Shown here one piece after another: positions 20,402-42,341 of a DNA stretch of 64,000 bases. Numbering within the stretch: position 1 is the stretch's first letter; each line of letters opens with the position of its first letter. The stretch spans positions 1,240,001 to 1,304,000 of the forward strand of contig NZ_NEVU01000003.1 in assembly GCF_002261355.1 (NCBI RefSeq), read 5' to 3'. Below the pieces are notes generated by a model, which made no database searches, was not told the origin of the DNA, and worked only from the letters and a program-made list of their open reading frames with translations. This DNA comes from Bordetella genomosp. 12. GTDB taxonomy: Bacteria; Pseudomonadota; Gammaproteobacteria; Burkholderiales; Burkholderiaceae_B. A program made the position numbers and the translations under genes.

Positions 20402-20424
20402 GAAAATGTAAACTCAGGCTATCT

Positions 20425-20501: not shown

Positions 20502-20504
20502 CCT

Positions 20505-26070: not shown

Positions 26071-26132
26071 CGCCTGACAATCCGGCAAGACGCCAATACC
26101 CCCGCGGCGAGCCCTGCGGCATACTGGCGGCC

Positions 26133-26466
26133 ATGAGTACCGCATCCCAGGACACCCCTCGACGCGCAGCAACTGCGCGCGTTGGCCGAACGCCTGATGG
26201 GCGAGGTGGCCACGCGTGACGCCCAGATAGCGGCGCACGATGCGGTGATTGCCGAGCGGGATCGCGTACTGCACTTCAAACAGACGCACATCGACCAGCT
26301 CATGCCGGAGCTGGCGCTGTACAAGCGCTGGCGCTACGGCAAGCGCTGCGAGCAACTGAACCCCGCGCAGGCAAGCCTTCTGGAAGGAACGATGGATGCC
26401 GACAGGGCGGCCATCGAAGAGGAAGTCAACGCGCTGCGCGAGGCGATAAGCAAAACAGCCTTGTGA
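26133..26466 (+). pseudogene. tnpC: IS66 tnpC, frameshifted N-terminal fragment
   Basis: MSTASQDT is followed by a one-base slip in a run of C near 26155; the correct frame then gives L-D-A-Q-Q-L-R-A-L-A-E-R-L and the coiled-coil and 'LALYKRWRYGKR' block of IS66 transposases. Sequence leaves the family near 26460, before any DDE catalytic residue, so only about a fifth of the gene is left. Confidence 0.82.
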
Positions 26467-26823
26467 AAGTTTGTCCTTGATAAACGATTTTCCTGCGCTT
26501 TTTGAAACTCAGGGAGGAAGGTGCCCTGACTCGCGTGCTCAACGTGCTGAAGGCGAACTTCCTCCGCACCGCGGCGGACAGGTTGTCAATGCAGCATAGA
26601 CTACGACGATATAAGAAGCTCGGTATCGGCCCATAACAAAACGCCAGAACACGAGCCGTCAAGCCATCAGTGCAAAGCGGTGGCAACGGATTCCGTGTAT
26701 TTGGCCGTGTCTCTAGGCGCGGTCATGGGGGCTTCATGCATCGTCGGGCCTTTCGTTCGCGCTGGTGGCGATTTCGTTCTGGGCCTCTGGGTACCGGGCC
26801 CGCACTTGGCCGCGACGTCGTAA
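26467..26823. other. Gene-free junction between the IS66 remnant and the HNH gene
   Basis: No convincing coding region or RNA. An open stretch from about 26690 on the plus strand reads as a hydrophobic peptide but has no start context or recognised family. Likely junction debris left where the right part of IS66 was lost. Confidence 0.4.
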
Positions 26824-27696
26824 TTAGCGAAAGCCGCCGTCACAGAACCAATCGCTGGCGATGGCTCCCCGATACATGGCTGCTACCCATGAATTCTTCT
26901 GATCTGCCTCGATGCTATCGAGCTCCTCCCTCAAGTGAGCGCGTACAGCATCAGCTCCACCAACGTCGTGCAGTTTCACCAATCGTCCTCGAATCTCGGC
27001 AAGTCGGCTACCTGCATTCGAACCAAACAGGCTGCCAAGCTTCAGTTCCTTTAGGTGGGACGCCACTCGTGCCTTTTCATCCAGTGTCCAATTAACAGGA
27101 GGAGATGCCCGGTAGCGGAATGCTGCTGGGGAACCAACGACAACCTCAGCGGCAAGCCAAATGTCATGATCGAAGTCGTCGAAATAGGGGTGTAGCAATT
27201 GTTCCCCAGCCCTCGTTGGGTAGTACTCCATCTTCTCGCCTTGGCACCACGTACATGCTGGCACCAGGTTATGCGGCGTAACCGAAAGCGCAGGGAAATG
27301 CGTCTTTGGAAGATAGTGGTCAAGGGTGTTCACAGTCCCGATGCCGCAAAACGGGCATCGCCCGTTCACCGGTATCGACATGATTTGGTCATAAACTGGC
27401 CGCCCTTTGGCTTTTTTGGGGACCATCCGCAACGTGTAAACCTTTACCAACTCTTCCGCAACGACCGTGCGCACCCTGGTGGTAAGGGGAGTCAAGTAGA
27501 GGGACTTAGCAGCTGCTGCCAAATCGTAGTCTTCCGACGCTTTCTCGATGTCGCTGCTGATGGCCTCAAGCCTTGCTCTCAGCTCCACGTTCTTGACCAT
27601 TGCAACACAAGTATCGAATACGTCCCGCGCTACGTATGCATCGGCTTTATCATCTTTCGGAAGGGATAGATACCTCATGCTCTCAGTCTTCGTCAT
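26824..27696 (-). CDS. HNH endonuclease, PtuB-like (Septu-type pair)
   Basis: About 290 residues. A zinc-ribbon HNH core is clear: C114-P-F-C117, D126-H127-Y-L-P-K, N143, and C148-T-W-C151. The flanking parts are helical and unassigned. Its ATG lies inside the end of the ATPase gene (14-nt overlap), so the two are coupled. An ABC-type ATPase followed by a small HNH protein is the arrangement of Septu (PtuA-PtuB) and of the PtuAB cargo of some retrons; no reverse transcriptase is present here. Expected role: nuclease arm that degrades nucleic acid once the ATPase is triggered. Confidence 0.82.
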   Translation of the reverse strand: MTKTESMRYLSLPKDDKADAYVARDVFDTCVAMVKNVELRARLEAISSDIEKASEDYDLAAAAKSLYLTPLTTRVRTVVAEELVKVYTLRMVPKKAKGRPVYDQIMSIPVNGRCPFCGIGTVNTLDHYLPKTHFPALSVTPHNLVPACTWCQGEKMEYYPTRAGEQLLHPYFDDFDHDIWLAAEVVVGSPAAFRYRASPPVNWTLDEKARVASHLKELKLGSLFGSNAGSRLAEIRGRLVKLHDVGGADAVRAHLREELDSIEADQKNSWVAAMYRGAIASDWFCDGGFR

Positions 27697-29269
27697 TCAC
27701 ATACATCGCTCGGAGGACAGCCTTGCCCTCGGCACCCAATTGGTGTCCCATAAGGTCCAATGCGTCCTCGTAGGACACCGCCTCGCGTCGGACATCATTT
27801 AGAATTTGGTGATACCCCGACTGCGATAGTTCGAGCTGGAAAACCTCCCTGCTGAGTATCCCAATGCTCTCGCCAAACGTCTCAATAGTCGGGCGCTCCG
27901 CCTTGGACGCGGTTAGTATGCGATTGATGATCCAAACGCAGGATCGCGGCACTTCCTGGAGGATGATCGGAGAGTGTGTGGCGACGACGGCAACGCCATT
28001 CCGCCTCACTAAGAGTTCGGAAATCGCGCGGGTCATGGCGGATAGCAGCGGAGGGTGAAGATGTCCTTCAGGTTCGTCAATGAGGACCAGAGTTCTTTCT
28101 TCAACCTTTTCGACAAGTCTCGTCAAGGTGAGAAGCACGATTTTGTGTCCAGAACTCAGTGCTTTAAATGTTTTGAGGACACCCTCCAGCTCTTCCTTAT
28201 CGGATAGATCTGCCTCAATCACTTCAGCGAGTTGAGCGGCCTTAAATACCGGGTCGGACTGAAGCGTGCCGACTACTTCAGCCCACCTCCTGCGCCGAGC
28301 TCCGATACGGCACTCCTTCAGACTATTTACGAATTCCGTGGCGAGCATTTGCGGAGACTTGGGCTTAATCGATGCTGTAGGCGAGTCGCTAGCCCATCCC
28401 CGAAGCCCAATGTACGAGAAGCCGAGAGCATCGGAGGAGGAGTCTCGGTCCGGTAGCAGGTCAGCCTCATCAAAGGCGCTGAAGGAAACGGCAACTACGT
28501 TTGCGAACGTGCCGCTATTTTTTCCTTGCTCACTGAGTTCGAATTTCCCTGACTGCTTAGCAGACGCATCCTTCGCGACCAGCGCCTTGGTCATAAGGGA
28601 AAGCAGACGAGTCTTCCCAACACCATTCCTCCCTATAAGAATATGGACATTGGTAGGGATCCGTGAACTTGGGTCAACGCTAAATTCGAGCTCGAACGGC
28701 GGCGCTCCTTCGCCGAGGCGCTTTGGTGGAGAGTAAGAAAACTCGTAACGCGTAACACGGGCATCGCCCCGCGCCATTCTTCGGAACTGACCTTCCACCG
28801 TGCTGCGCGTGACGGAGCGGAGCAATGACTCTCCCATGACGTATTCGTCCTTAGCCCACTTCCACAAAGCGGCATCCCACGCGACGTCCTTTAAAGCGAC
28901 GAGGACTTGCTCCCGAATTAGGTCTCCTAGAGCATCAAGGCTCGAGTAGTAATCTTCATCCTGACCCACCGAAAAGTAATTGCTGCCGAGCAGAGTGAAG
29001 TCCTTGTCAAGGGCTGGATAACGATGCCCAGAAGGTATGTCATCGCCACCAGAGTGAGGCTTCAATCCGCGCGAGCCTATTTTTACTTGCCCAATTCCGT
29101 GCTTTTTTCCATGCGTATCAACGATGGTTAGGTAGAACTGAGTGCGGTATTTTCCCCAATCATCCCAATAATCGGTCTCCAAGTAAGCCGACCATCCTTT
29201 GGCATCCGCAGGAATTTTTTCGCTCCGAGCCAGGACGTGAAACGGTAGGGATTTAGAGTTTTTTTGCAT
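27683..29269 (-). CDS. ABC/AAA-type ATPase, PtuA-like (Septu-type pair)
   Basis: About 528 residues. Walker A GRNGVGKT at 213-220, ABC signature LSSGH at 371-375, Walker B LVLIDEPEGHLHPP from about 394, and the switch His in VATHSP near 431. The ~200 residues before Walker A form an extra domain rich in aromatic and acidic residues that typical PtuA proteins lack or have in shorter form. Start at 29269 follows a modest GAGA. It precedes and overlaps the HNH gene. A Septu assignment is by architecture; other ATPase-HNH conflict systems are possible. Confidence 0.8.
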   Translation of the reverse strand: MQKNSKSLPFHVLARSEKIPADAKGWSAYLETDYWDDWGKYRTQFYLTIVDTHGKKHGIGQVKIGSRGLKPHSGGDDIPSGHRYPALDKDFTLLGSNYFSVGQDEDYYSSLDALGDLIREQVLVALKDVAWDAALWKWAKDEYVMGESLLRSVTRSTVEGQFRRMARGDARVTRYEFSYSPPKRLGEGAPPFELEFSVDPSSRIPTNVHILIGRNGVGKTRLLSLMTKALVAKDASAKQSGKFELSEQGKNSGTFANVVAVSFSAFDEADLLPDRDSSSDALGFSYIGLRGWASDSPTASIKPKSPQMLATEFVNSLKECRIGARRRRWAEVVGTLQSDPVFKAAQLAEVIEADLSDKEELEGVLKTFKALSSGHKIVLLTLTRLVEKVEERTLVLIDEPEGHLHPPLLSAMTRAISELLVRRNGVAVVATHSPIILQEVPRSCVWIINRILTASKAERPTIETFGESIGILSREVFQLELSQSGYHQILNDVRREAVSYEDALDLMGHQLGAEGKAVLRAMYVNDED

Positions 29270-29497
29270 TTCTCAATATGATGAGGCAGTCGCGCTGTAC
29301 ATCCGCACCGAAAGATCTGACGGATATTCTAGGTTGCCACAAGCGAAGTGACAAACGAATACGTTTACTGAAAAGTCGTTGATATCCAATTCTAGAAGCG
29401 GCGTGACTCAAACCCCGGATTAGTTTGGACCAGAAATGAAATTCCCGACTCAATGCAATGCCTGTGGGGCACGGAAAGGACTTGCAGGGGAGCGGGC

Positions 29498-29995
29498 CTA
29501 AACGACGGCCTGAGGGATGACGTTTACCGCACGAAGAAGTTTGGTGCCGTCATGGACCCAAACACCTAGGCCATCAGGGAATGTTTCTGTTCCGATAATT
29601 ACGAAAACTAGGGCGGTGAACTCTTCCCGGGCAGCCACCGCGTGTTTAGCTGCCAAGACTTGGTCTGTATAGGATGGCTGTGGTATGGGCTCGGGATGTG
29701 AGTGCCAAAAGCCCAAACAGTGAAGACCGCCCGCGAACATCATTGCTCTCTCTGCATCGACCGCAGCTATGTCGATTTTCACCCCAGTGAACCAAGAGCG
29801 TTTGGGCGTCAAAATTGTGGCTGTGTCAATCAAGATACGGTCACTGGCCAAATTTTTGGCATAGAGTTGTCCTGCCATCTCCCTCGATTTCTTGCTTTTC
29901 TGTGCATTCCCACGAAGAACTCCGAGAACGTCAGGTGGAAACACCAGTGACCAGATGGCGCCAGGCAGTGCGTAAATTAGTGCTTCTTCATTCAT
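29498..29995 (-). CDS. cap3: CBASS Cap3: JAB/JAMM-family isopeptidase
   Basis: About 165 residues. The JAMM metal motif is complete: Glu39, then His98-Ser-His100, seven residues, Ser108, two residues, Asp111 (HSHPEPIPQPSYTD). In type II CBASS this zinc protease removes the CD-NTase from its conjugates, opposing Cap2. The ATG at 29995 overlaps the cap2 stop by 8 nt (ATGAATGA); a GTG/ATG-like start at 30013 would overlap more and has no advantage. Last gene of the four-gene operon. Confidence 0.9.
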   Translation of the reverse strand: MNEEALIYALPGAIWSLVFPPDVLGVLRGNAQKSKKSREMAGQLYAKNLASDRILIDTATILTPKRSWFTGVKIDIAAVDAERAMMFAGGLHCLGFWHSHPEPIPQPSYTDQVLAAKHAVAAREEFTALVFVIIGTETFPDGLGVWVHDGTKLLRAVNVIPQAVV

Positions 29996-31823
29996 GACCG
30001 AGCACTGATTCAAGAGAGCGAGTGATTTGAGAGGACTCGAAGCTGGAGTCGCTTATGGGAATCAGAGAGCTGCGGACTATCGTCACGTTCAGTTTGTCAA
30101 AGTATGCAGATGACCGTACCCAACTCCAAACAGTTGAGTCATACACGTTACCGTCGAGACACGAAAGAATCCGTTCCGTAGCGAATCCGGCGGTTTGCCA
30201 AGCATCTGCTGCACCGTAAATGTGGAAACCTGAGGAGCATGCCGGCAGTTGCACGCGAACATCAGGAGGCCATGTTGCTGCATTTACCTTTTCCCACGGA
30301 TCGTCAGGCGGCCACGGGGATTCCTTGGTGGCATACACAGTGTGTGCCGCTGCACCATGGGGTTCTATCCATACATGAACGATGCCGGCGTCGCCGAATG
30401 CGCTACTCCTGAACTGAGAAATCATCGTGCGCACTGCGCCATCTCCCGTGCAGTCTATGACAAGATCGTATTCCCCTGGTGAGCAGACTTGAGATATCCA
30501 ATCTGTAGCTAAGACTCGTAAGGCCTTGGTCTGAATGCCAGGAGTCTGTCGTCGTATCCTGCTGGCTAAAGCGGTTGCCTTCGATTGCCCCACGTGCTCC
30601 GCCCCAAGGAGATGGCGGGCACAATTTTCGATACTGAAGTTTTCCTTGTCGGCCAGGTGGAGTTCTCCAATACCGGCCCGGGCTAAGAGGTCGGCAATCG
30701 GCGCACCGATCGAGCCGCAGCCAATTAGCAAGACACGTTTCTGACGGCGAAGCTCTAAAACCTCGGTTTGATGGTCTCTGGCCAGAGCCCAATCGGCATC
30801 TACGCGGTCAATCTCGACAGGCACCACCCCAGGACCAGTTAGCTGCGGTATCAAATTGGGTGTGATCAAATAGCCGAAACATGTTCGATCTTGCACCAGG
30901 ATGATCAGTTTTGGATGGTAGTCTTCGGCCGATTTCTCTTGCGCATTTTGTGTAATTTTTTGCCTGAGCCAAGCGATGACCGAATGGCTGTCATTTGTCA
31001 TCCCAAGCACCAGCTGCTCGAGTTCATCTAGAGACTTCGGCCAATCTGTCGGGGTCCAGGACAAGTCTTTAGGGACGGGAACCCACAGCGCCTCTCCCCT
31101 AACAAGGGTTCCTTTCGGCCACCCATGTTGAACTGCTAGCGTATGGGGATCAACCGTTCCAACGGAGGCCAGTAGCATGGTGCTGCGGAGCTCCATGTCG
31201 CGGCGTGAAGTTGCGCGACCTGGCCCTCGAGCATGATAGCTGGCGATCTTTCCTTCCGTGACCTGGGAGATGTTTTGTAAGGCAGCGAGCACACTACGGG
31301 GTGTTGGTGCACCATACTTCTTGTAAGAGAGGTAGCAAAAGCGGTTCCAATAGGCGAGGCGCTCACGTTGGAATTCGGCTCTGACCCATGCTGGGTTAAC
31401 AATGTCTCCTAAATACTTGGATAGCTTCTTCAGCACCTCAACAACAACAGCACGAGGATCGTTATAGTCATCAGGGGACGGCTCTACGCCATGGCAAAAT
31501 TTGCCATCCTCCTCAATGTGCGGGAATTGAAGACATAGCCCCTCAGGGAAATGGAGCTGGGGCGTAGACGCAGGAAAATCATGTGCTATCGAGAGCTGGA
31601 CTCGAACCTTACCCAATAAGGGGTGGTCAAGGTCTAGGTCCCAACAGGCCACCCTCCGTCGGGCGTTGTTCCGGCTCGAACGACTTACATACGTATTGCC
31701 CTCGACATCCAACCACTGCTCGACCGCTTGGGCCGCATGTTGGAAGGGGGAAAGAATATCGCTGGTGTCAGGCAAAAGTGTCACTCGCGCTCGACTTTCT
31801 GGGCCCAGAAGGGACTGATACAC
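29988..31823 (-). CDS. cap2: CBASS Cap2: fused E2-E1 ubiquitin-like conjugating enzyme
   Basis: About 611 residues from a GTG at 31823 (GTG 31784 is an alternative nearer the upstream stop). N-terminal E2-like domain with candidate catalytic Cys110 in EDGKFCHG; a linker of ~200 residues; then a ThiF/E1 adenylation domain with G368-x-G-x-x-G373 (LLIGCGSIGAP), the ADKENFSIENCARH strand with Asp392, and a candidate E1 catalytic Cys529 in QLPACSSG. Cap2 activates the C-terminus of the CD-NTase and conjugates it to targets, which primes the enzyme. Overlaps the CD-NTase gene by up to 56 nt. Confidence 0.92.
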   Translation of the reverse strand: MYQSLLGPESRARVTLLPDTSDILSPFQHAAQAVEQWLDVEGNTYVSRSSRNNARRRVACWDLDLDHPLLGKVRVQLSIAHDFPASTPQLHFPEGLCLQFPHIEEDGKFCHGVEPSPDDYNDPRAVVVEVLKKLSKYLGDIVNPAWVRAEFQRERLAYWNRFCYLSYKKYGAPTPRSVLAALQNISQVTEGKIASYHARGPGRATSRRDMELRSTMLLASVGTVDPHTLAVQHGWPKGTLVRGEALWVPVPKDLSWTPTDWPKSLDELEQLVLGMTNDSHSVIAWLRQKITQNAQEKSAEDYHPKLIILVQDRTCFGYLITPNLIPQLTGPGVVPVEIDRVDADWALARDHQTEVLELRRQKRVLLIGCGSIGAPIADLLARAGIGELHLADKENFSIENCARHLLGAEHVGQSKATALASRIRRQTPGIQTKALRVLATDWISQVCSPGEYDLVIDCTGDGAVRTMISQFRSSAFGDAGIVHVWIEPHGAAAHTVYATKESPWPPDDPWEKVNAATWPPDVRVQLPACSSGFHIYGAADAWQTAGFATERILSCLDGNVYDSTVWSWVRSSAYFDKLNVTIVRSSLIPISDSSFESSQITRSLESVLGHE

Positions 31824-32982
31824 CGCTCAACAAGCCTGCAAGCGGACCAGCTCCTTGGCTGGCCTTCCATGCTTGAACTCCCTGCTGTCCAAAGATGGCC
31901 TGGACGCGATTCTCGGACCGTTTGGAATATTCCTCCGAGAACAGCGCTTCCAAGTCGTTTTCTAAACGTGTGTGCCATGTTTCAAATTCGCGGGCGCGCA
32001 AGCCGCCATCGCTATTCCACTTGTCTGCGAAATTTTCGCGGACAGTGCCCGGCAATGCGGGATTGTTGATGCTGTATGCGTGTCCATTGCGATCTATGAA
32101 GTCCGGCATCCGTGCTACGACTTCAAGCGCTACCTCGATGGCACTGGTGAATCCATGCAGATCGTTCTCTATCAATTCCTTGTATGCCTTTGCCGCTAGC
32201 GTTACAAGAATCACGGAAATGGGTTTGGCTGCCTGACGATAGTCGGCCTGTTGCTTGTAATAGCTGTCACGGTGAAGCTTCATTAGTTGAACTAAGCGCC
32301 GGAGAATGTCATCTAGCCCAATCCGCTCTTGCGGTATGGGATCGACCGTAGTTCGGGCGTCGACAGCGAAGGCTTTACGTATCGTCTGGAAAGGAAACCG
32401 GCGGTTTGCGATAGCGCAAAACCAGTCCGCAAACTCTTCAGGGTTCGAAGGGCTCCAGACGAGTTCAGGGTCGCGGACCTTGAGGATGGTCCCTTCAATC
32501 CATGCCTGCATCGGGATTGCTGGGGTTACATCAAAGTAAAACGGTTCTCCGGGATACTGGAGGCGCCAGCAACGGCTCTTGGCTTTCGGATCGCCGGCAT
32601 CCCTGATTCCTCGAAGTGCGGCACCGAAATCTTGGAAGAACGGCTCGGAATAAACCAAATTCGAGAACTTCGGGCCGGTCAACTTGACTACAACATCAAG
32701 ATCAAATTTCTCGCGTCCATCACCTGCGATCGTAGTCTGCGTGCGCATAGATCCCTGAACCACCACGTGCACATCACTAGTCTCAATGTCAAACGCTCTG
32801 GCTATGTGGTTAGAGAACTCCTTATATCGCCGGGTAGCTGCATCCCTCTTGTCTTCAGAGAGTTCGAGCTTCTTCAGCATGCGGACGATGAACTCTTCCC
32901 ATTGCTGGCTTTCGTTACGAAGTGCGATCGCCTTCGCAATTACCCGCGACCGCTTTTGAGGAATTGCCGGATAGCTAGACAT
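31768..32982 (-). CDS. CBASS CD-NTase (cGAS/DncV-like nucleotidyltransferase)
   Basis: About 404 residues. Nucleotidyltransferase motif GS at 77-78 (VVQGSMRTQT), catalytic acids D94-x-D96 (KFDLDVV) and third acid D151 (FYFDVTPA), followed by the helical OAS-like lobe. The chain ends S-D-T-F-A; a small C-terminal residue is what Cap2 enzymes conjugate. ATG 32982 is chosen because it overlaps the effector stop by 8 nt (ATGTCTAG on the minus strand); a TTG at 32994 is less likely. It makes a cyclic oligonucleotide after phage infection. The CD-NTase clade and the nucleotide made cannot be fixed by eye; the SAVED effector argues for a cyclic tri- or dinucleotide. Confidence 0.92.
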   Translation of the reverse strand: MSSYPAIPQKRSRVIAKAIALRNESQQWEEFIVRMLKKLELSEDKRDAATRRYKEFSNHIARAFDIETSDVHVVVQGSMRTQTTIAGDGREKFDLDVVVKLTGPKFSNLVYSEPFFQDFGAALRGIRDAGDPKAKSRCWRLQYPGEPFYFDVTPAIPMQAWIEGTILKVRDPELVWSPSNPEEFADWFCAIANRRFPFQTIRKAFAVDARTTVDPIPQERIGLDDILRRLVQLMKLHRDSYYKQQADYRQAAKPISVILVTLAAKAYKELIENDLHGFTSAIEVALEVVARMPDFIDRNGHAYSINNPALPGTVRENFADKWNSDGGLRAREFETWHTRLENDLEALFSEEYSKRSENRVQAIFGQQGVQAWKASQGAGPLAGLLSGVSVPSGPRKSSASDTFA

Positions 32983-34096
32983 TGGAGGCACCAAGGTTAT
33001 GTTGAGTAATTGGCTGTGAAGTTTGTTCGAATCGTGCAGGCTTGTTCCCGTCTATTTCTATGTTCCAAGGATAGGGAGGAGTCTGATCCCTCTCCCGTTG
33101 ATAGCATTTCAGCGTAGGCATATTTCTGGGGTCGTAGGCTTGGCCAAACCGGACACAAAGGGTCGCCGGAGCAGCAAGGATCAGGTGAACTCTGCCGACG
33201 GATCTGTTCGCCAACTCAGCCATGACATCGGTGAACTGACGCGTCAAGGCTTCTTGCATCGTTCCAGATAGAAGAGTGTTCGGTTTCGGGTCGTGAAGAC
33301 GTAGCTGCACCACAGGCATGTCAGGAAAAGTCTGCGCGATTCCAGCAAAGTCGGCTAGGTAGCTTGCGGAGACAGCAACGACGATATCCGGGCATTGGAA
33401 CTCCACTTCGGTCAGGCCTGAAATGGAGAACCTCTCTCCGCTATCTTGTTCATCGAGTTCTTTCCAGTTGCCTGTAGTTCGTTCCCATTCCATCAACTGG
33501 ACGCGTCCTTCATCGTCCAAAAGCACTCCCGCGTAGAAGAGCAGTGAAACTTGCATCACTCCTCCCGCCACTACGGTGAGGTGTTCACGCGAAGTGCCAG
33601 CAGTCATCAGGCGAATCTGTCGCCGCAATTGAACAAGTTCGTTCAATGCGTCGAGGATGTTGGGAGTAGGCCCCATTACCAATCGCCGCACGTCAACCAA
33701 ACAGGATTCGCGGCGGCCGACAATCTTTGCCGGTATCGCCTTGACCAAAGGTGAGTCCGCGGTGTCGACCAAGCCTCTTAATTCAACAGCCAACACACGA
33801 CTAACTCGTAATTCGTCGAGCTCAAACTCGGACCGCCGCCGAGCCATGAACAGGCTGACTAGGGTGGCCACTGAGGCTATAGAGAAAAGTCCCCAGAAAG
33901 CGACTGCCCCGGGGCCGTCCCCCCAAGATAAAGTGAACTCCTGGCTGGAATCCATATTCTTATAGGCGATAGAGACCCCACCGCCGACCGCTAATGCCCC
34001 TAGGAGCGAAATGCTGGCGCGAAAAATCTGGACGGAGATATGACGCGGCCGAACATAAAAATCGACCAGCTTCTCAATAAGACTTTTTGAGTTCAT
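32975..34096 (-). CDS. cap14: CBASS effector with two transmembrane helices and SAVED domain (Cap14-like)
   Basis: About 373 residues. Two hydrophobic helices at roughly 24-44 and 65-85 are followed by a soluble region whose second half ('VEFQCPDIVVAVSASYLADFA', 'VHLILAAPATLCVRFGQAYDPR', key residues only) matches the SAVED cyclic-nucleotide sensor, itself derived from CARF-like folds. A membrane-SAVED protein would sit in the inner membrane and disrupt it on ligand binding, killing the infected cell. First gene of the operon, preceded by AAAGGAT five bases before the ATG. A CACTA-N4-TAGTG repeat at 34132-34145 is a possible operator. Confidence 0.85.
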   Translation of the reverse strand: MNSKSLIEKLVDFYVRPRHISVQIFRASISLLGALAVGGGVSIAYKNMDSSQEFTLSWGDGPGAVAFWGLFSIASVATLVSLFMARRRSEFELDELRVSRVLAVELRGLVDTADSPLVKAIPAKIVGRRESCLVDVRRLVMGPTPNILDALNELVQLRRQIRLMTAGTSREHLTVVAGGVMQVSLLFYAGVLLDDEGRVQLMEWERTTGNWKELDEQDSGERFSISGLTEVEFQCPDIVVAVSASYLADFAGIAQTFPDMPVVQLRLHDPKPNTLLSGTMQEALTRQFTDVMAELANRSVGRVHLILAAPATLCVRFGQAYDPRNMPTLKCYQRERDQTPPYPWNIEIDGNKPARFEQTSQPITQHNLGASNV

Positions 34097-34445
34097 TACG
34101 ATCCTTTGTAAGCCTTACGCTCCAGAGCAGACACTACATTTAGTGGTTTACATCTTAAGAATATCAATATGATGTGGTTGACGCCAGTTCTATTCAACCA
34201 AAATCCCGAGCTTAGTCACAAATAGTTTCGATCATTTCATAAAATTGACTAGATATGAGATTTTTTGATATTTTTCTCTGCTGACCTATTGAAGTAATCG
34301 GAACTGTTGCTGATAACGTAGGGGTAAATGTTGAGGGTCAATTGCCGCTAGTAGCGACCAACTCTCCTCAAGGGAAATCAACATGAACAGTACAAGTTGG
34401 CCGACCACCTACATACAGGGTCGTCGCTAAATTTCGGTGCGCGGA

Positions 34446-34451
34446 TATAAT
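34446..34451 (+). promoter_or_regulatory. Perfect -10 box (TATAAT) for a candidate small RNA
   Basis: TATAAT lies in a short AT-rich patch. The -35 region (about 34423-34428) is poor, so activation or a non-standard -35 may be needed. Transcription would begin near 34457-34459, just before the first strand of the predicted RNA structure. Confidence 0.5.
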
Positions 34452-34456
34452 TCTGG

Positions 34457-34655
34457 TATCTCTGAATACGACGATAGGCCCAGCCGAGGTGACGTTACGG
34501 TTGAGGCAATAGAGCAGAACCGGAGTCACTCGGCTATGTCGTCTGGTTGAACGGGGTGCTTCCGCTTGGAAGCGCAATTTGTAGAATGCAGATTGCGGGC
34601 GCCGCCGATCCGACTATCAAGAATCAAGGCCCGCACACGTGTGCGGGCCTTTTTT
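34457..34655 (+). ncRNA. Candidate structured small RNA, about 200 nt
   Basis: Between a TATAAT box and a strong terminator, the plus strand folds into nested helices: ACGAC (34468-34472) with GTCGT (34538-34542); AGCCGAGGTGAC (34482-34493) with GTCACTCGGCT (34525-34535, one bulge); CGGTT (34498-34502) with AACCG (34518-34522), leaving a 15-nt purine-rich loop. Downstream come GCTTCC/GGAAGC (34558-34573) and CGCAAT/ATTGCG (34573-34597), which compete for one base, then the terminator. No open frame of note overlaps it. It lies between the CBASS operon and the HAD/AbrB operon, pointing away from CBASS. No known RNA family is recognised. Existence of a transcript is inference. Confidence 0.55.
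34628..34655 (+). terminator. Strong Rho-independent terminator
   Basis: Perfect 11-bp self-complementary stem GGCCCGCACAC/GTGTGCGGGCC followed by six T on the plus strand; the loop must open at the centre. On the minus strand there is no T-run, so it serves plus-strand transcription, the candidate RNA above. Confidence 0.8.
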
Positions 34656-34726
34656 AATTGTTCGGAAAACGCCTCGACGGAAGCAATGCCGCAATCGGGA
34701 GGGTGGAACGGCGTTTAAAGCGCAGT

Positions 34727-34963
34727 TCATTGAGTAGGCACGACCCACGGACCGATAGTCAAGTCTGCCAATGTCAACGCTGATAGCCGGTTCAATACCA
34801 ATAATTCTGCTTCTCTGAGGGCGTTTCCCACAACGAGATTGGCCAATTGTTCCGCTTGGCAAGGACATTCATCGTTGCGATAGCTGACGGCAAACAAGGG
34901 CGGCGAGCCAAGTGCCTCGTACACTTCGAGAAGTGTTAGCTGAGTAGGATCTGCACACCGTAC
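34727..34963 (-). pseudogene. Rrf2 family regulator, C-terminal fragment
   Basis: The frame opens after a TAG at 34964-34966 and reads D-P-T-Q-L-T-L-L-E-V-Y-E-A-L, then PLFAVSYRNDECPC, then NALREAELLVLNRLSALTLADL to a stop at 34727. This is the pattern of the second half of Rrf2/NsrR-type proteins (LLE.YRA..., PLFA...CP..., EAE..L...L..LTLADL). The N-terminal winged helix is missing, cut off near the HAD gene. Remnant of an ordinary chromosomal gene caught inside the island, or carried in with it. Confidence 0.55.
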
Positions 34964-34992: not shown

Positions 34993-35445
34993 TCAACATG
35001 TCGTGATCGCGGATCCGAATCGTTCCTCTATTGCCTTCAGAGTGGCGGTTAGCTCAATGTCTGACGCGTCATATGGGTGCGAGAATGACTCGACGCGGAT
35101 CCATTGAGCAGTTTGTCCGGGATGAACGTAGCCTTCGAAATCGTCCACAAGAAGACACTGAAGAACTTTCGCATCGCTGATCATCTCCAGGTTTTTTGTC
35201 GTACCGGTCCAAGTGACATACTCCAGTTGGGCAAACCAAGCTGGGGCAACATCTTCCGCTACTAAAAGGCTTGCGATAGCGCGAAAACGCGACTCACTAA
35301 CTGTTGTAAACATCACAATCCGCGGAAAGAGCGTTCGGCACCGCTCAAGGAACGGTAAGAGCCCTGGACGTGGAATTTGACTGGCTGCGTTGGAAATTAG
35401 CGTGCCCTCGAGATCAAGTGCGAGGATTGAGGGGCTAGATATCAC
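34993..35445 (-). CDS. HAD-superfamily hydrolase, small (NIF/CTD-phosphatase-like)
   Basis: About 150 residues. Motif I is DLEGTL near residue 11 (an E replaces the general acid Asp of DxD), motif II MFTTVSES near 45, a lysine in KNLEM near 84, and motif III LVDDFEGY near 99. No cap domain, so the active site is open to macromolecular or protein substrates; the overall pattern is like NLI-interacting-factor/FCP phosphatases. The Asp-to-Glu change may weaken hydrolysis. Last of four coupled genes, overlapping the AbrB-like gene by 4 nt, so it is a candidate effector of a toxin-antitoxin-like or defence operon. Confidence 0.7.
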   Translation of the reverse strand: MISSPSILALDLEGTLISNAASQIPRPGLLPFLERCRTLFPRIVMFTTVSESRFRAIASLLVAEDVAPAWFAQLEYVTWTGTTKNLEMISDAKVLQCLLVDDFEGYVHPGQTAQWIRVESFSHPYDASDIELTATLKAIEERFGSAITTC

Positions 35446-35648
35446 AAGTTTTCCATCTCAGTGTGGGGCGGGGGGCTTGCTGATGTGCTATTGCCAGAAG
35501 CGAGGTGCGCGGTGAGCGTGTCGTTCTTAGCTATGAGGAATACGATGCGATCACCGGGCCGCCAGGCGGCACGATTGCGGAGGTCTTTGGGGATCGTCAC
35601 ACGCCCTCTGGAATCGAGCTTATATGTTTGCCTTTTCTGGGACGGCAT
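35442..35648 (-). CDS. AbrB/MazE-like DNA-binding protein
   Basis: About 68 residues. 'YKLDSRGRVTIPKDLRNRAAWRPGDRIVFLI' (key residues G-R-V-T-I-P-K-x-L-R and P-G-D) is the swapped-hairpin SpoVT-AbrB domain; the C-terminal ~20 residues are Ser/Pro rich and probably disordered. Start at 35648 follows GGGAAG; a longer frame to 35669 is not needed. Such proteins are often antitoxins that bind the operon promoter. Here it is followed by the HAD gene with an ATGA overlap and preceded by two unknown genes. Confidence 0.8.
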   Translation of the reverse strand: MPSQKRQTYKLDSRGRVTIPKDLRNRAAWRPGDRIVFLIAKNDTLTAHLASGNSTSASPPPHTEMENL

Positions 35649-35650
35649 CG

Positions 35651-35866
35651 TTACTTCCCGTCGCTCCACTTTTTGTTGCGAATGCTGAGGAGCTCGGCGT
35701 GCATTCGGCCCGAATGTGCGAGCAGGTTCAGCACCGAATTCCAGTAGGCTGCGGCCAAATCACCCTCCTGCTTGGCCAGGTCGCTGAGCACGCGGTTGGC
35801 TAAGGTGAGATCAACTGGTTCACATGGGAAAGGTCTGTCGGTCAGCGGTTCTGTGCACTTGATCAT
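35651..35866 (-). CDS. Small hypothetical protein in HAD/AbrB operon
   Basis: About 71 residues, mostly helical by composition ('LANRVLSDLAKQEGDLAAAYWNSVLNLLAHSGRMHAELL', key residues only). No family recognised. Its start overlaps the upstream gene by 4 nt and its stop is 2 nt from the AbrB-like start, so it is an integral operon member rather than a chance frame. Confidence 0.6.
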   Translation of the reverse strand: MIKCTEPLTDRPFPCEPVDLTLANRVLSDLAKQEGDLAAAYWNSVLNLLAHSGRMHAELLSIRNKKWSDGK

Positions 35867-36312
35867 CTCTTACCTCTTGGTTGCGACGCGTGATGAAACA
35901 GCCAAGCTCGGATTGCAGCCTCTCCCCTTGTCCTGCCGAGCGACGTGACTTCGCCAATGGCGCACTCGTACCCTTGTTCAAGCTCGATGAATCTCGCTTC
36001 GTGTTCCTCCGCTAGGTCTTTGCCCATTCGCTCGATGACTGTGTAGGCATCCAAAACCCTGACGCTCCGAGGCTGTTCAGCAATTAGGTACGTGTTGGAA
36101 CCGTCGATGTAGGCCAGTCCTGTCCGGCCTAGCCGGAGCGCGAATACTCCATCGACTGTGAGCATTTCATGGATGAGTCCAGCGCCAGACAGCACCGCGG
36201 GATTGGCGGCCTGCTTGCTCCAAGTCAGGCCAGACTCCTCCAATGTTGGTGGCGTTGCGTCTGCTGCCCACATGACTCCGCTGAGAGCCCGGCTTATGCT
36301 TTGCCTAGCCAC
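35863..36312 (-). CDS. Hypothetical protein, first gene of HAD/AbrB operon
   Basis: About 149 residues, mixed alpha/beta composition with a central 'LIHEMLTVDGVFALRLGRTGLAYIDGSNTYLI' strand-rich part and an acidic helix 'DLAEEHEARFIELEQGY' (key residues). No recognised family. It starts 60-odd bp from the inverted repeat at 36353-36375 and is divergent from the XRE regulator, so it is probably under its control. Neighbours suggest part of a small conflict or toxin-antitoxin-like system. Confidence 0.6.
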   Translation of the reverse strand: MARQSISRALSGVMWAADATPPTLEESGLTWSKQAANPAVLSGAGLIHEMLTVDGVFALRLGRTGLAYIDGSNTYLIAEQPRSVRVLDAYTVIERMGKDLAEEHEARFIELEQGYECAIGEVTSLGRTRGEAAIRAWLFHHASQPRGKR

Positions 36313-36352
36313 GTCTAGTTCCGTCCAAGGTGGTTTTTAGATATACCAACAA

Positions 36353-36375
36353 GAATAGTCGATTTTGGACTATTC
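36353..36375. promoter_or_regulatory. Operator-like inverted repeat between the XRE gene and the HAD/AbrB operon
   Basis: Perfect 8-bp arms GAATAGTC and GACTATTC around a 7-bp AT-rich spacer. It lies in the divergent promoter region, about 47 bp from the XRE start and 41 bp from the 36312 start, a typical place for a Cro/CI-type operator. Confidence 0.65.
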
Positions 36376-36421
36376 GAAAACAGACTTCAACCTTTGTGCT
36401 GCTAACCACGCCGGCACAACC

Positions 36422-36679
36422 ATGGACAAGTCGATCTACACCTACAACTACGGGCAGATGCTAAGGCTACTGATTGCGGCCAGAGAGCAAGTGGGCCTTA
36501 CGCAACAGGACTTAGCCAACGAATTGGATGAGACGCAATCTTTCATCAGCAAGTGTGAACGAGGGCAGAGACGCTTAGACGTGGTCGAGTTGAGAATGTG
36601 GTGCACAGCCCTAAACGTGTCTTATGCCGAGTTCATGCGGGTATTTGACAGTGTGTCGATTCCCCCAGCCACACGGTAA
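36422..36679 (+). CDS. XRE family helix-turn-helix regulator
   Basis: About 85 residues. The HTH is clear: LIAAREQVGLTQQDLANELDETQSFISKCERGQRRLD, given by key residues T-Q-Q-D-L-A, F-I-S-K-x-E-R-G-x-R. It is little more than a DNA-binding domain. The ATG at 36422 is preferred to an upstream TTG at 36365, which would run over the inverted repeat. Likely represses the divergent four-gene operon and itself. Confidence 0.85.
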   Translation: MDKSIYTYNYGQMLRLLIAAREQVGLTQQDLANELDETQSFISKCERGQRRLDVVELRMWCTALNVSYAEFMRVFDSVSIPPATR

Positions 36680-36839: not shown

Positions 36840-37262
36840 TCAGCGCAGCTTTATGACCGGTGGCCTCAACGCTTCCAACTCTTCTTCGAGCCTCTTATTT
36901 TCTATCGCTAGCTCTAGAACTTTCATTTGCAACTGAACCAATTGAGATTGCGCATCATCTCGTTGCTGCACCAAGAGTTGTTGAGCTCGTCTCGAATCCA
37001 ATTTGCGCTTGGCGTGTGTGGCTCGACGTTTGGATTCCAGCGCTTCGCCCGCACCTACAATCTCAACATAAGCCTGAATTTCCAAAATAAGCGCTGGAAA
37101 TCTGCTCTTGCGGAGTGCTGAGGGATCTGTTCCTGCTTCCCGTGCCACATTATTTTGAGACACCGGCGCGCCCACTGGTAGAACGGTAGGATTACCGCTT
37201 TTCAAGCGCAAAAAGGCTTCTCGATACTTACTCTCTGCATTAAGTCTATTGGATAATTTCAA
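36840..37262 (-). CDS. Small coiled-coil protein of a recombinase cassette (TnpC/DUF6262-like)
   Basis: About 140 residues starting with TTG inside the end of the recombinase gene (17-nt overlap). A short HTH-like part ('VSQNNVAREAGTDPSALRKSRFPALILEI', key residues N-V-A-R-E-A-G and S-A-L-R-K) precedes a long heptad-rich helix ('QSQLVQLQMKVLELAIENKRLEEELEAL', key residues). Tn554-type TnpC proteins have the same layout and influence the recombination reaction. Function here inferred from position and build. Confidence 0.6.
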   Translation of the reverse strand: MKLSNRLNAESKYREAFLRLKSGNPTVLPVGAPVSQNNVAREAGTDPSALRKSRFPALILEIQAYVEIVGAGEALESKRRATHAKRKLDSRRAQQLLVQQRDDAQSQLVQLQMKVLELAIENKRLEEELEALRPPVIKLR

Positions 37263-39267
37263 GATAATTCCTTAGACCGCCAATCTCCCGAAGTAGTGCA
37301 AGCTGTCGTGGAGAACCTGTGATTTCTAATAAGCTTGCTTGCTCCAATTGCTTTAGCTGCCGCCTAACTACTCCTTCCAATTCGCGATCGAAAACCGCAT
37401 CCTTGCAGCCTTTGGTACCGCCTTCACCCGCACACCGAGCAATTGATTCAATACCCCCGTAGTCACACGGTGCAACCTGAGTACATGCACCCAACCGCGT
37501 CCTACGAAAAGATACATGACCAAGCCGAGCAGACTTTATCAATTTTCTATAATCCCCCTTTGACACCAAGTTTACGATCTCGGTTTTCGCAGTGGCACCT
37601 CTAGGTGAAACATAACGATCGGAAGACAACCTCATTAACTCGCAGGCGATAACTTCGTATTTCGCCTCGCGCACCGCGGCGTCGGTTTCCTGCGACAACC
37701 TAAGCCTTGTAAAATTTCTTCCATAATAAGCGGTCTGAATTACATTGAGGTGCTGTAACTGAACCTGGATAGAACTGTCGCTCACCCCAGAAGCAAACAT
37801 ATTCACAGCTCCTGTACGGCGAAGTTGGTGATGGGCAAGTGGCCATATCTTCCCAATCTGAAACCTAGGATCCTTATCCAAGAACGGTGAAAACATGCAA
37901 GCAAACCGCAGATCCGCTTCTGTAATTCTCAGAAGATCGGGATCGAACAGCTTTTCATATTTGGATATCATCGACAATTAATTAGGGATGACTTTTCTAA
38001 CTGAATAGTCTGACCTAGTGGCTAGAACCGGCATCCATGGCTCATATGCGGAGGTCCACACCAGTGGATTCATGAAGTCTCCGCAGTTCCCCTCTTCCAC
38101 ACCCGCAGCCTGCGCACATCGCACTCTAAGCCGCGCAATAGAAATTAGTGGATGTAATGCCGTTTCAATTACATCACTGGTCACCCATCGGGCATCACTG
38201 TCCGGATTGGTTTTCGTCGTCTCACCATGGATTACTGGAAAAAACCCAAGCTCAGTGTCATGCCATTGGAGACAATCTGCTCTCAAACTCGACACTTCTT
38301 CTTTTCGCATAAGAGTAAAAGTGATAATGAAAGCTATACCAGCCAGCTGTACCATGCCAAGGTAGGACGTCAAAGACTTGATCGTCCAGCCATTCCCAGT
38401 CGGGTTTGTCGTCACCCACTTGTCGAATAGCTCCATCAGATCAAAGCGGTTTAAAATGTCTTCGAAATTTTCTACGCTATCTCTATTCGCCTTTCCTGGG
38501 CCCGAAAAAAGTGGTGACTTAAGCTTTTTTCGACTCCGTCTCAGAACATAGAAATCACTGAGATCACCACTCGAGACACTAGCAGCGTACGCATCTACAC
38601 AATAATTAAAACATGCCTCTATCCTTTCTCGGTGGACCCAGTAATCCGAAAGACAGTCCGACAACCTTTCAATTTGGTAATTCCAAATTCTGGGGGGAAT
38701 GTAGGGAGTCTGGTCAGACTCCTTTTTCTCCCCGATGGCCTTTGCCAAAATTGAAATGCCAGCTTCGTCTAGTATTTTGAAGCCTATCTGATCTTGAAAC
38801 ATTATCAAACGGTCGAGATATAGAACATCCGTCGACTTCCAAGATGCCTTCAACTCTTTCCCAAACTTCTCTATTAGCTCGGGAAAGCGAGATAAATCGC
38901 TGGCTGAAATATTCTCCCTATCACACATGCACACGAGACGTTTAATACTATTGAATCGCGACCTTATTGTGTTCCAGCTTAATTTATAAACTGGCCACCA
39001 AATAAGAAGCGTTGCCACGACCCTTAATATGTATTCGTTACGCGGATGCAGTTTAGGCTTGTCGAAACGAAGTCGCAAACTTTTACCTGCCCAGGCAGAG
39101 AAGTCCCAAACGCAGTCACTCCACGATGACGCAGGCGTACCATCCGTCTTTAAACTCACCATCCAGTCATTAGGAGGTGGTAAAGAGGGAGGTCGGTAGC
39201 AAGGGTGCTCAGTTGAAATTGGTATAGGACTTGCAGCAATCGAGAGCTCCGAGTGGATCATTGCCAT
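37246..39267 (-). pseudogene. Third large tyrosine-recombinase-like gene, split by an in-frame TAA
   Basis: Read as one frame it would be about 673 residues. Part 1 (39267 to 37981) has an N-terminal SAM-like half and 'FTLMRKEEVSSLRADCLQWHD', the first Arg region of the catalytic domain. A TAA at 37978-37980 interrupts it after R-K-V-I-P-N; the same frame goes on L-S-M-I-S-K-Y to 37246 with H-H-Q-L-R-R-T (HxxR) near 'IWPLAHHQLRRTG' and 'QLQHLNVIQTAYYG' (H...Y), the second half of the active site. The start at 39267 follows GGAG by 8 nt and overlaps the upstream gene by 10 nt. A Cys/His-containing region after the catalytic part (C-T-Q-V-A-P-C, C-A-G-E-G-G-T-K-G-C) may bind zinc. Either broken, read through, or a sequencing error. 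Confidence 0.75.
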
Positions 39268-40961
39268 AACCTGTGCTCCACACTCTGCATTGTCGCCTCC
39301 CAATCTGGGTGCCAGTATCCCTCTGCGACACGCTCGGACGCTTCTTCTACCCACCCCAATCGTTCTGTTGAAGACTCCTCCAGCCAACGCAGTTTTCCCC
39401 GAATTTTCTCAATCACAGACTGAACCGGTGACGGTGCATCGTCAGACCACTCGAGCCCAGATACACTAAATTCGAGTTGTTTGAGTTGCCCAAAGGTTGT
39501 CAACGCCCAAACATAATCAAACTCGTCTATATCCCGATGACTTTCACACCATAAGCATCCCGACGGTCTAACACAATCAGGTCTGGGCGCTGTATTAGGA
39601 ATATGCGCCGCTACGGCGACGTTCTTTAGACAGCCACCAGGAGCAATCGATTTTTCCTGAACAACTGTGGCCTTCTTCCAGAACCTCCCAATCTCAGCCG
39701 TCGCCCTATGGAAACTGGGCCGGTGGTAGACCTGGATCAGAGTCCGCTCGCCATGCTGCATCGTCTCCGCTACTGATTCAACATCCATAGCCACCGAAGA
39801 GGCCATTAGAAAATTGATGCGCATTCCCCGCAATTTTCTAGGGCACACGTAAGGAACATCCAGCGCCCTGAAGATCCTACGGAATCTATGCAGTGCGCGC
39901 AGCTCAGCCTGCGCCCCTGGCTCCTGGCTCAACGGAAAAAGTCTACTTTCGGACGGACAGAAAATTCGCCGCCAGGCCAAGTACCTCTCAAGATGAGCAC
40001 GATACTCTTTATATATTTCGAACGTCACATCGCCTTGGCGTCTGCCCTTTCTGATGGTGACTCGATACCCATCCGTATAACTCGTGTAACGCAGATTCCC
40101 TACATTTAACCGAACCGCCTGACTAACATTCATGCTTGTCTGCGAGATAAAAAGATGGAGCTCTGCTTCGATCCGCAGACTTATAAGGTAGTCCTGGCGC
40201 CCGAGTCCATAATCTATTGAGTTCCCCTCTGAAGGCACACCCCATTTGCCAATTCGCAAACAGGCATCGTCACGAATATAGACCTGCGTCGGGGGTAGAT
40301 CTCTCAAAAACTCGACATCCACTACACGACATATTTCAGCTGAAAAACGGCCTTGCAGTAGAAAGTCTTTTCGGCTTGTTTTTTCCGCAGTCCTTCCAGC
40401 CGCTGTGATCTGACGGCGAGGGCTCCTAACTCTCGTAAGGTTCAAAACACTGGCCCTTCTATCCAAAACAACATCTAACAGGTCAGATATTACTTTGGCG
40501 TATGCATATATTGAACTAGCTTTAAGCGGGGCCGCCGAAATCGATTTATTATCTCGATATTCTTTTATTTTCTGACTGCGATGAATTAGAAAATCTGTCC
40601 ATTGTAAAAAGACGTCCAGGGCAGTGTCGACGTCGAGATCTTTTCCGGACTGGTCAGCATATGCGAAGAACATACGCAGTTTAGAAATTCTGTCTCTAAG
40701 CGTCTCGGTAGATGAGCCTGACAGCAAATCAGCGTTCATTTCCGCATGCAGGCCTATTACAAAATCCGTCCTCTTAACACATGGCTGCATGGGATATTTT
40801 CCATTTTCAATATCCGTCATGGCCTTTTTTATTGTGAATCGTGCCGCTCCTTTGAATAACAATGGAGTTAAGTCCCATGGCGTTTCGCTTCTAGACAGTT
40901 TGGCCGATGGGAACGTGAGTTTAGGTAGGCTATTACTTACCAAGCGCGTTCCAATCTTCAT
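39258..40961 (-). CDS. Second tyrosine-recombinase-like protein (TnpB-like), degenerate active site
   Basis: About 567 residues. The C-terminal half keeps 'PRKLRGMRINFLM' (xxxR, with Arg where His is usual) and 'MQHGERTLIQVYHRPS' (H and candidate catalytic Tyr), and a Lys in 'VTIRKGRRQGDV'; the first catalytic Arg position reads 'SMNVSQAVRL' and seems lost. A terminal Cys cluster ('RPSGCLWCESHRD') is like Tn554 TnpB and gamma-mobile-trio recombinases. Overlaps the first recombinase gene by 29 nt. May act as a structural partner rather than a nuclease. Confidence 0.75.
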   Translation of the reverse strand: MKIGTRLVSNSLPKLTFPSAKLSRSETPWDLTPLLFKGAARFTIKKAMTDIENGKYPMQPCVKRTDFVIGLHAEMNADLLSGSSTETLRDRISKLRMFFAYADQSGKDLDVDTALDVFLQWTDFLIHRSQKIKEYRDNKSISAAPLKASSIYAYAKVISDLLDVVLDRRASVLNLTRVRSPRRQITAAGRTAEKTSRKDFLLQGRFSAEICRVVDVEFLRDLPPTQVYIRDDACLRIGKWGVPSEGNSIDYGLGRQDYLISLRIEAELHLFISQTSMNVSQAVRLNVGNLRYTSYTDGYRVTIRKGRRQGDVTFEIYKEYRAHLERYLAWRRIFCPSESRLFPLSQEPGAQAELRALHRFRRIFRALDVPYVCPRKLRGMRINFLMASSVAMDVESVAETMQHGERTLIQVYHRPSFHRATAEIGRFWKKATVVQEKSIAPGGCLKNVAVAAHIPNTAPRPDCVRPSGCLWCESHRDIDEFDYVWALTTFGQLKQLEFSVSGLEWSDDAPSPVQSVIEKIRGKLRWLEESSTERLGWVEEASERVAEGYWHPDWEATMQSVEHRLWQ

Positions 40962-42195
40962 TTCTCAGTCCAACTGTCTCTTCGTAGAACCTATTCGCCG
41001 CATCAGACTTTTGTGAGGCCTTGTCCACAAACTTTATATACCGCAGCGTGGAACTCTCATCTTTATGAAACATTGCGGTTCGCACCTGATCCACTGCCTC
41101 ACTTCGAGACAACCCAATATTTAGCAATACGCTCGCTCTTGCCGTGCCGAACGTAGCGCGTGTTTCATGAAAAACAAAATTTTTAAATTCTGTTAGCCCT
41201 TCATTGATAGCTCGTTTACGCATTTGGCTTACCAACGAATCTATTGTTGCCACGGAGTAAGGCCTTCCATAGCGATTGAGAAAAAGAGTGTCCCTACTGG
41301 CCGAAGCGTTCTTCGCTAAGCGTAATAGTCTCCTTGTTGAGAAAAGGTATTTTTTTAGATCAAGGAGTAGCTGCTTCGGAACCTCAAGATCGCCAGAAAC
41401 GTTAAATTTCGTGCGCACCGCAGTTCCCGGGCCTACACGGATCAAGTAGAGGTCACTTATCACTGGATGCTCCACTGCACCTTGGATCGCCTGCCCCGTG
41501 AGGGTTATTACCGTGCCAACTCTGGCGCCAGTGAACATCCCAATAGCCAGCATTAGATGCAGTTCGATAGTGTTTTTCTGAGAACTAAATTTCATTAGTT
41601 CTTTGGCATCTTTCGCGCTGAGTGGCAGGAGGCCGTCCTCGACGCCGTTACCTATACGTGCACGGAGGGGAATTGCGAGGTCTGTGCCGTCTCGGACCAT
41701 TGCGCGCGCAAATCCCCTTGCATCAATGAAGTGCCTTATTTTTTTTTCAGCGCTCCATAATGGGGCATTTGGGCTGATTAGATTATTATCTTTTGCGAAA
41801 TTATAAAATCGAATAACGGCGTACATTGTCGAACTGGCGGTCGATGAGGCATATGTGCCGTCCTCAATACTGCTCATCAAGCTTTTTCTAAAAGCCCTCA
41901 AAACTTGATCTTCTTTGCGCTGAGGGAAGTGCCGCCAATCATAGTCATTCAACTCAAGAAAATTGGCGTACCGCTGCAAGGCCTTCATGAGACTCTTTAC
42001 GGTCTCGTAATCTGCTCCGTCTTCAACTTGACGAAGCGCCCAAACATTAACCTCGTCCCAACCTCGTCCGTTTTCCCAGAATATCTGAGGGAGATGCCGC
42101 AAGCCCTTATCCAAATTAATAGCCCACTCTAGCCCTCCGTCTTTTAATTCGCGAAGAGCATATCCCGTCAATTCAATAGTTGTTAGCCGCGCCAT
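40933..42195 (-). CDS. First tyrosine recombinase of the cassette (TnpA-like)
   Basis: About 420 residues. Full catalytic set is visible: Arg in 'MFTGARVGTVITLTG', HETR in 'VFHETRATFG', His in 'MFHKDESS' and Tyr in 'TLRYIKFVDKAS'. It is therefore the most likely active recombinase of the group. ATG 42195 is used; a GTG at 42252 extends the frame by 19 codons. Codon use and base composition are clearly more AT-rich than in the backbone. It is the first of four overlapping genes that run toward the island interior, with the ychF terminator about 320 bp behind it. Confidence 0.82.
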   Translation of the reverse strand: MARLTTIELTGYALRELKDGGLEWAINLDKGLRHLPQIFWENGRGWDEVNVWALRQVEDGADYETVKSLMKALQRYANFLELNDYDWRHFPQRKEDQVLRAFRKSLMSSIEDGTYASSTASSTMYAVIRFYNFAKDNNLISPNAPLWSAEKKIRHFIDARGFARAMVRDGTDLAIPLRARIGNGVEDGLLPLSAKDAKELMKFSSQKNTIELHLMLAIGMFTGARVGTVITLTGQAIQGAVEHPVISDLYLIRVGPGTAVRTKFNVSGDLEVPKQLLLDLKKYLFSTRRLLRLAKNASASRDTLFLNRYGRPYSVATIDSLVSQMRKRAINEGLTEFKNFVFHETRATFGTARASVLLNIGLSRSEAVDQVRTAMFHKDESSTLRYIKFVDKASQKSDAANRFYEETVGLRNEDWNALGK

Positions 42196-42341
42196 AGCCG
42201 AAGCATTCTGAGAAAAACGGAATGGCAATTGACCGCGCAAAGCCCGTCCCACTTTCCTGCATCAACTATGTATTCCCAGACTCGCGTGCATGGTAGCCAC
42301 CCATGCTCTGCTATCTCAATGCTCAGATTTAGTTTGCCCAT
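42183..42341 (-). CDS. Possible small leader ORF of the recombinase cassette
   Basis: 52 codons from an ATG at 42341, with AGGAAA at the right spacing upstream, ending 13 nt inside the first recombinase gene. Reads MGKLNLSIEIAEHGWLP and on to LRMLRLWRG. The good ribosome site and overlap suggest translation coupling; no family recognised. An excisionase-like role is conceivable but unsupported. Confidence 0.4.
   Translation of the reverse strand: MGKLNLSIEIAEHGWLPCTRVWEYIVDAGKWDGLCAVNCHSVFLRMLRLWRG

Follow-up and report, generated by a model that had tools for sequence, protein, structure and literature searches.

Among the defense genes of a 64-kb stretch of Bordetella genomosp. 12 DNA lies a short segment that has homologues in five further genomes of Bordetella and Achromobacter, that keeps its base pairs and a pseudoknot across the six copies, that has no reading frame common to them, and that is accompanied in the six genomes by varied defense neighbors. 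It looks like a real, narrowly distributed and previously uncatalogued RNA family. On balance, the sequence comparisons lead us to think it probable that this is an independently transcribed noncoding RNA of ~190 nt, forming a new and narrow family of Bordetella and Achromobacter defense islands and serving the island that carries it. Below, "the window" refers to the whole 64-kb stretch, RNA coordinates are window positions, and features are on the plus strand unless marked otherwise.

The RNA locus

We built a covariance model, R1, from six copies of the element, namely that of the window and those of five relatives: Bordetella pseudohinzii (G085), Achromobacter sp. Root83 (G025), A. anxifer (G004), A. 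mucicolens (G015) and a further genome of the genus Achromobacter (G030). The model places the conserved core of the window copy at 34463-34613 (147 positions, 142.2 bits, E 8.9e-33), and blastn homology between the window and its relatives starts at -6 to -1 and stops at +139 to +147 relative to this core. A preliminary description of the locus had proposed a promoter and a terminator of its own. The TATAAT hexamer on which the promoter was based is present at 34446-34451, 11 nt upstream of the conserved start, and a side-by-side listing of the relatives has TATACT, TACACT or TAAACT/GATAAA in roughly the same place; consensus scans of the window and the relatives found no -35 hexamer. The terminator with six T was correctly described: an 11-bp stem and six consecutive T, of which two fall inside the stem, occupy 34626-34655, and the minus strand of this hairpin is also terminator-like. 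Terminator-like sites are also found 3' of the RNA in G025, G015 and G004, and ~140 nt further downstream in G085, at one site each compared to 0.4-0.9 in shuffled sequence, which is near shuffle level. In G030 there is a near-copy of the G025 hairpin that fails the T-run rule.

Only one open reading frame of at least 80 aa touches 34446-34655, an 83-aa frame on the minus strand at 34617-34868. The alignment of the six copies is broken by indels with lengths not divisible by three, and 32 of 36 frames (six frames in each of six copies) contain a stop codon, in agreement with the earlier view that no intact gene lies here. Likewise, the statement that no known RNA family is recognized stands, as no Rfam 15 family reaches its gathering score in the window stretch. 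At a relaxed E-value the window copy gives 18 sub-threshold matches, all of them over the terminator, and the G025 copy gives none. The listed titles and opening lines of abstracts in the literature name no such RNA.

Distribution among related genomes

The Infernal model search suggested in the preliminary description was productive, returning six copies at 138-181 bits among 268 family genomes, all in Bordetella and Achromobacter and each the only strong match in its genome. The window copy is 71-76% identical to its relatives. A DNA search of the same 268 genomes gave a match in 12, composed of the window, the five relatives with the RNA (74-76% identity in this search) and six others; the latter match at the terminator hairpin alone or over a stretch of 32 nt and are not the RNA. 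No further strong R1 matches were found in samples of 369 class, 399 order and 299 phylum genomes. Weak matches number two in the class sample and three, at 25-29 bits, in the family set. Large parts of the model are unmatched or unpaired in these five (G003, G200, G205, G423 and G534; 24.5-29.4 bits), and we dropped them because the alignments are poor and several such matches are expected by chance (E 0.0003-0.005 per genome in 637 genome searches). A pattern scan of GTDB returned five stretches, four of which are the RNA according to R1, and the fifth, from Cryobacterium, is not (8.7 bits). Viral contigs gave no stretches with three patterns and 13 with one further pattern, none of the 13 being matched by R1. 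Using blastn, the window copy has no match in plasmids, E. coli or phages, and the G025 copy none in plasmids or phages. Sequence identity among three of the Achromobacter species is 95.2-98.6% for the RNA, compared to 87.0-94.2% for the adjoining intergenic DNA and 94.5-94.9% for the rep gene.

A conserved fold with a pseudoknot

We scored the fold on a six-row alignment (A3), where a cell is one pair in one copy. The consensus helices P1 to P6 have standard pairs in 95.1% of 246 cells, and five of the pairs show two-sided changes; once the pseudoknot is included, 95.4% of 282 cells are paired and the two-sided changes again number five. When the partners were slid as a control, only 33-39% of cells were paired, with 0-1 two-sided changes. 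The P1 hairpin (34476-34486 with 34498-34509) is paired in 90% of its cells and has one pair changed on both sides. Within its loop, GGUGAC (34488-34493) pairs with GUCACU (34525-34530), which makes up the whole six-base bulge separating the 5' strand of P2 from that of P3, and this pseudoknot is paired in 97.2% of cells. Its first pair is G-U in four copies, G-C in one and A-U in one; no pseudoknot pair shows a two-sided change, and one is broken in G015. P2 (34518-34524 with 34542-34548) runs on into P3 (34531-34534 with 34538-34541), and together they are paired in 100% of cells with three two-sided changes. The remainder of the core is a three-way domain (34549-34610) consisting of the closing stem P4, P5 (34558-34573) and P6 (34574-34596), with 92.9-100% of cells paired per helix and one two-sided change, in P5.

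Four of the five double changes, those in P1, P2, P3 and P5, are found in the window copy. Independent changes are few because there are only six copies, three of them nearly alike. One of five covariation measures, that for further pair types, does not exceed shuffles (320/500), and kindred sequences can exceed such shuffles without any structure. The preliminary description had made its RNA depend on compensatory changes in homologues; these are present, in a fold other than the one it described. Of the 246 cells, 21 are G-U and 5 are A-C, an excess that suggests the plus strand is the folded one, and one conserved pair is U-G in all six copies. Columns are invariant at 11 of 13 positions in the leader and 9 of 12 in the pseudoknot, compared to 1 of 14 in the apical loops.

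The structure described initially consisted of three nested helices, two short hairpins and the terminator, and its order was considered unlikely by chance. The minimum-energy fold of 34446-34655 does contain the nested helices, including the one that pairs 12 nt with 11 nt around a single bulge, as well as two hairpins toward the 3' end, and it is more stable than 200 of 200 dinucleotide shuffles (z -5.18), in line with that claim; without the terminator, z is -3.08 and 0 of 200 shuffles are as stable. Stability is less pronounced in the relatives, where core z values for four of them are -2.83, -1.38, -1.12 and -0.54, and the core folding energy of G085, G015 and G025 is not unusual; with downstream sequence, z is -1.94 for G025 and -0.14 for G085. 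The nested helices hold as the minimum-energy fold of the window and not as a conserved structure, since 5 of their 23 pairs are broken in four to five of the six copies. They are kept in 76.8% of cells over the 23 pairs, no better than when shuffled (325/500), and two of the pairs have double changes, which the version slid by +2 shows as well.

The energy predicted for the window copy is -61.7 kcal/mol in the nested fold versus -29.4 kcal/mol in the consensus fold when its pseudoknot is left out. Among the consensus pairs in the 5' domain, the minimum-energy fold contains 0 of 19 in the window and 0 of 17 in G085; among those in the 3' domain, it contains 12 of 19 in G015. A UGAC/GUCA pairing is common to the nested and consensus folds. 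We argue that the family fold is retained in the window copy despite its nested minimum-energy fold, mainly because four of the five double changes lie in this very copy. A two-state switch between the nested and family folds at 34470-34544 is possible, as is drift in this lineage, judging from the energy predictions.

Genomic settings

Each of the six copies has defense genes of one kind or another nearby. The window RNA has on one side a CBASS operon, beyond which Lamassu and PDC-M01 follow to the left, and on the other a gene for a HAD/NIF-like phosphatase. The defense cluster (19301-34096) contains Fic/SoFic, an integrase piece, Lamassu (LmuB, LmuA), PDC-M01A/B (PtuA-like) and CBASS, the last with JAB, E1-E2, cyclase and a SAVED-2TM effector. 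In G085 (L019, L046), TnsB-, TnsC- and TniQ-like genes are near the RNA and two CBASS gene sets lie beyond; on the other side, the HAD gene adjoins an apparent gyrB, named from its residues. No rep gene was found among the scanned proteins at these two Bordetella loci.

All four Achromobacter copies are in islands beside tRNA-Lys with the order integrase, rep gene, RNA and variable cargo, and the flanks, which we read as chromosome, realign from ~+21 to +31 kb onward. The rep gene is TrfA-like in three of these islands and of the Replicase/PriCT type in G030, which carries the RNA as well. Scans for cargo and defense genes, which covered chosen proteins, gave Lamassu in G025, SspGH in G004, PDC-S21 with an Hp2 match in G030, and in G015 PDC-S06 and an argonaute with a SIR2 partner. 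The latter pair (L068, 4387-7778) is a short argonaute with a SIR2-type partner, assigned by PADLOC to pAgo_I and Aga_SIR2. Type I restriction families were matched in a pooled protein set that contained G025 genes, the matching member being unspecified, and the DNA of the module concerned is common to G015 and G030. Homology among three of the Achromobacter islands ends ~40-105 nt 3' of the RNA, and that between G025 and G030 begins ~20 nt 5' of it. As no other DNA or translated similarity joins the window to G030 within 20 kb, the RNA is the only similarity found across all six 20-kb stretches.

A segment of the window at 58663-60116, 24 kb from the window's RNA, has 69-72% identity with DNA lying 8.5-10 kb upstream of the RNA at all four Achromobacter loci, where it is upstream of tRNA-Lys and outside the islands; G085 is without it in the 60 kb compared. 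This segment may mark related chromosomal neighborhoods. At 36840-42252, five adjoining minus-strand open reading frames, two of them with similarity to Phage_integrase (one below cut-off), resemble a tyrosine-recombinase element made up of several genes. In G015, a distinct gene of 700 aa, also with a Phage_integrase-type domain, is located beyond the HAD locus.

The HAD gene (34993-35445, minus strand) is convergent with the RNA in the window, and its start is overlapped by a gene for an AbrB/MazE-like small protein (35442-35669, minus strand), the name AbrB being read from residues. These two, followed by 71-aa and 149-aa open reading frames on the minus strand and accompanied by a divergent Xre-like gene, span 34993-36679 and may form a small system in their own right. 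In three Achromobacter islands, HAD and AbrB keep this order, together with part of a third protein. HAD is present in 7 of 268 genomes, the RNA in 6 and both in 5 (Fisher p 1.1e-8, a value that ignores shared descent), and the co-occurrence spans three different settings. No HAD gene turned up in the genome of G030; in G018 and G038, HAD is present and the 20 kb around it holds no RNA (best 12.0 bits with filters off). The G018 HAD copy has an in-frame stop and a place like that of G085. The distance between HAD and the RNA ranges from 0.3 to 8 kb, and their relative orientation is reversed in G085.

Possible functions of the RNA

In the explanation we favor, the RNA would be transcribed on its own as a unit of ~190 nt that ends at the intrinsic terminator. 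Its P1 loop would pair with the six-base bulge in the continuous P2/P3 hairpin, with the three-way domain P4-P6 and then the terminator following. The invariant leader and pseudoknotted core would bind a protein encoded by the host or a helper element, the RNA would act in trans, and the island would gain in maintenance, copy control or transfer, a role like that reported for the sgm-sRNA of SGI1. Transcription, trans action, protein binding and island benefit are each something we infer. Action in trans is argued by the RNA's own terminator, the absence of any constant gene 3' of it, and convergent neighbors at four loci: in the window, G015, G030 and G085 the gene listed next is convergent, and in G025 and G004 it is co-directional. 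With a co-directional gene just downstream in these two copies only, we rejected a riboswitch or leader. A bound protein is suggested by the conserved core and variable loops, and the variation of the apical loops makes a loop-based antisense RNA unlikely. No shared antisense target was found in the 20 kb around each copy, where perfect Watson-Crick matches were only 11-12 nt and differed between loci, so that a local antisense role gains no support from perfect matches of this kind.

The step to a benefit for the island is weak, because the two Bordetella copies are in other settings, one of them beside Tn7-like genes, with no rep gene seen there among the scanned proteins, an arrangement that suits accessory cargo no less than backbone. 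For the same reason, an accessory role in defense or addiction is a real alternative. In one form, the RNA would be an autonomous anti-phage or addiction gene, alone or with HAD-AbrB, that was picked up independently by unrelated defense islands, which we consider decidedly unlikely. That the RNA is a stand-alone defense RNA, or an antitoxin or cofactor RNA partnering the HAD-AbrB locus, strikes us as rather unlikely: the defense genes near all six copies and the five genomes sharing HAD and the RNA in three settings speak for it, whereas G030 without HAD, G018 and G038 with HAD and no RNA nearby, and the variable distance and orientation speak against it. Type III toxin-antitoxin RNAs are also pseudoknotted and found near defense genes, but unlike them the RNA described here has no tandem 30-40 nt units (in the window and L016) and no constant toxin gene adjoining it. 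Tandem-repeat scans gave only a 7-nt period within P6 in L016 and only two 10-nt copies in the window, at 34256-34275, outside the RNA; upstream of the RNA, repeats amount to one 11-nt pair in L016 and none in the window or L020. The preliminary proposal, that the RNA regulates the neighboring CBASS operon, now appears very improbable. The start of the window RNA core does lie 367 bp away from the CBASS effector gene, which is divergent from it, and the other Bordetella copy is also near CBASS genes. However, the RNA and the operon are divergent, the RNA comes with a terminator of its own, it has no perfect match of at least 11 nt to the CBASS coding strand (both 11-nt matches are on the other strand), and CBASS was not seen among the scanned proteins beside the four Achromobacter copies, where Lamassu, SspGH, argonaute and others were found instead. 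A special tie to CBASS is therefore not upheld.

Two further explanations were considered. If the conserved block were a DNA element, an oriT or a mimic of one, its hairpins would form on single-stranded DNA in mobilization and its RNA features would be incidental. The conserved int-rep side and the variable side of SGI1-like islands meet at oriT, which is a likely recombination site and has three conserved stem-loops (PMC9035990, PMC8409611). The RNA is likewise at a homology boundary in the Achromobacter islands, with one strong match per genome and no constant protein partner found. Against this, the fold makes use of G-U pairs, the first pseudoknot pair varies in step, most copies have a -10-like box 5' and terminator-like sites 3', plasmids and phages hold no similar sequence, and no relaxase is among the 25 listed of 35 Pfam families for 43 island proteins, and we judge the DNA element to be improbable. 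A relic of a known RNA-bearing element, such as a retron or DRT RNA, a TnpB guide RNA or a group II intron, is scarcely credible, even if a compact pseudoknotted RNA among defense genes resembles one. Retrons and defense reverse transcriptases have a structured noncoding RNA in defense islands, and the OMEGA RNAs of TnpB are 150-200 nt, pseudoknotted and carried on mobile DNA. The present RNA differs from the former in that no reverse transcriptase is near any copy (RVT_1 is absent from five of the six genomes and in that of the window is only on another contig), and from the latter in that no TnpB zinc-ribbon is near any copy (PF07282 occurs among the six genomes only in G004, on another contig) and no Rfam model matches. 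Furthermore, a relic is disfavored because the RNA is more conserved than the adjoining DNA among the three Achromobacter species.

Returning to the RNA that serves its island, the nearest precedent is sgm-sRNA, compared by role and layout, the likeness being one of role and not of membership. As reported in PMC9299015, sgm-sRNA is encoded by SGI1 between mpsA and oriT, originates at the 3' end of a longer primary transcript and is needed for SGI1's own mobilization. SGI1-type islands consist of an int-rep side and a variable side, with PF07042 and PF03090 as alternative rep families (PMC9035990). Both are small RNAs on mobile islands with int and rep modules, with the same layout and the same two rep families; the Bordetella/Achromobacter RNA differs in that it is short and bounded by a -10-like box and a terminator of its own. 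Of the 43 island proteins none is named mpsA, and tyrosine-recombinase-like proteins are present among them.

The RNA locus is a small testable unit, and the covariance model offers a means of finding more copies. Catalogued defense components are mostly proteins, and an RNA part tends to lie next to the enzyme it works with. As the sole common element found in six differently built defense neighborhoods, the RNA would point to a shared need met by an RNA, be it maintenance, transfer or defense.
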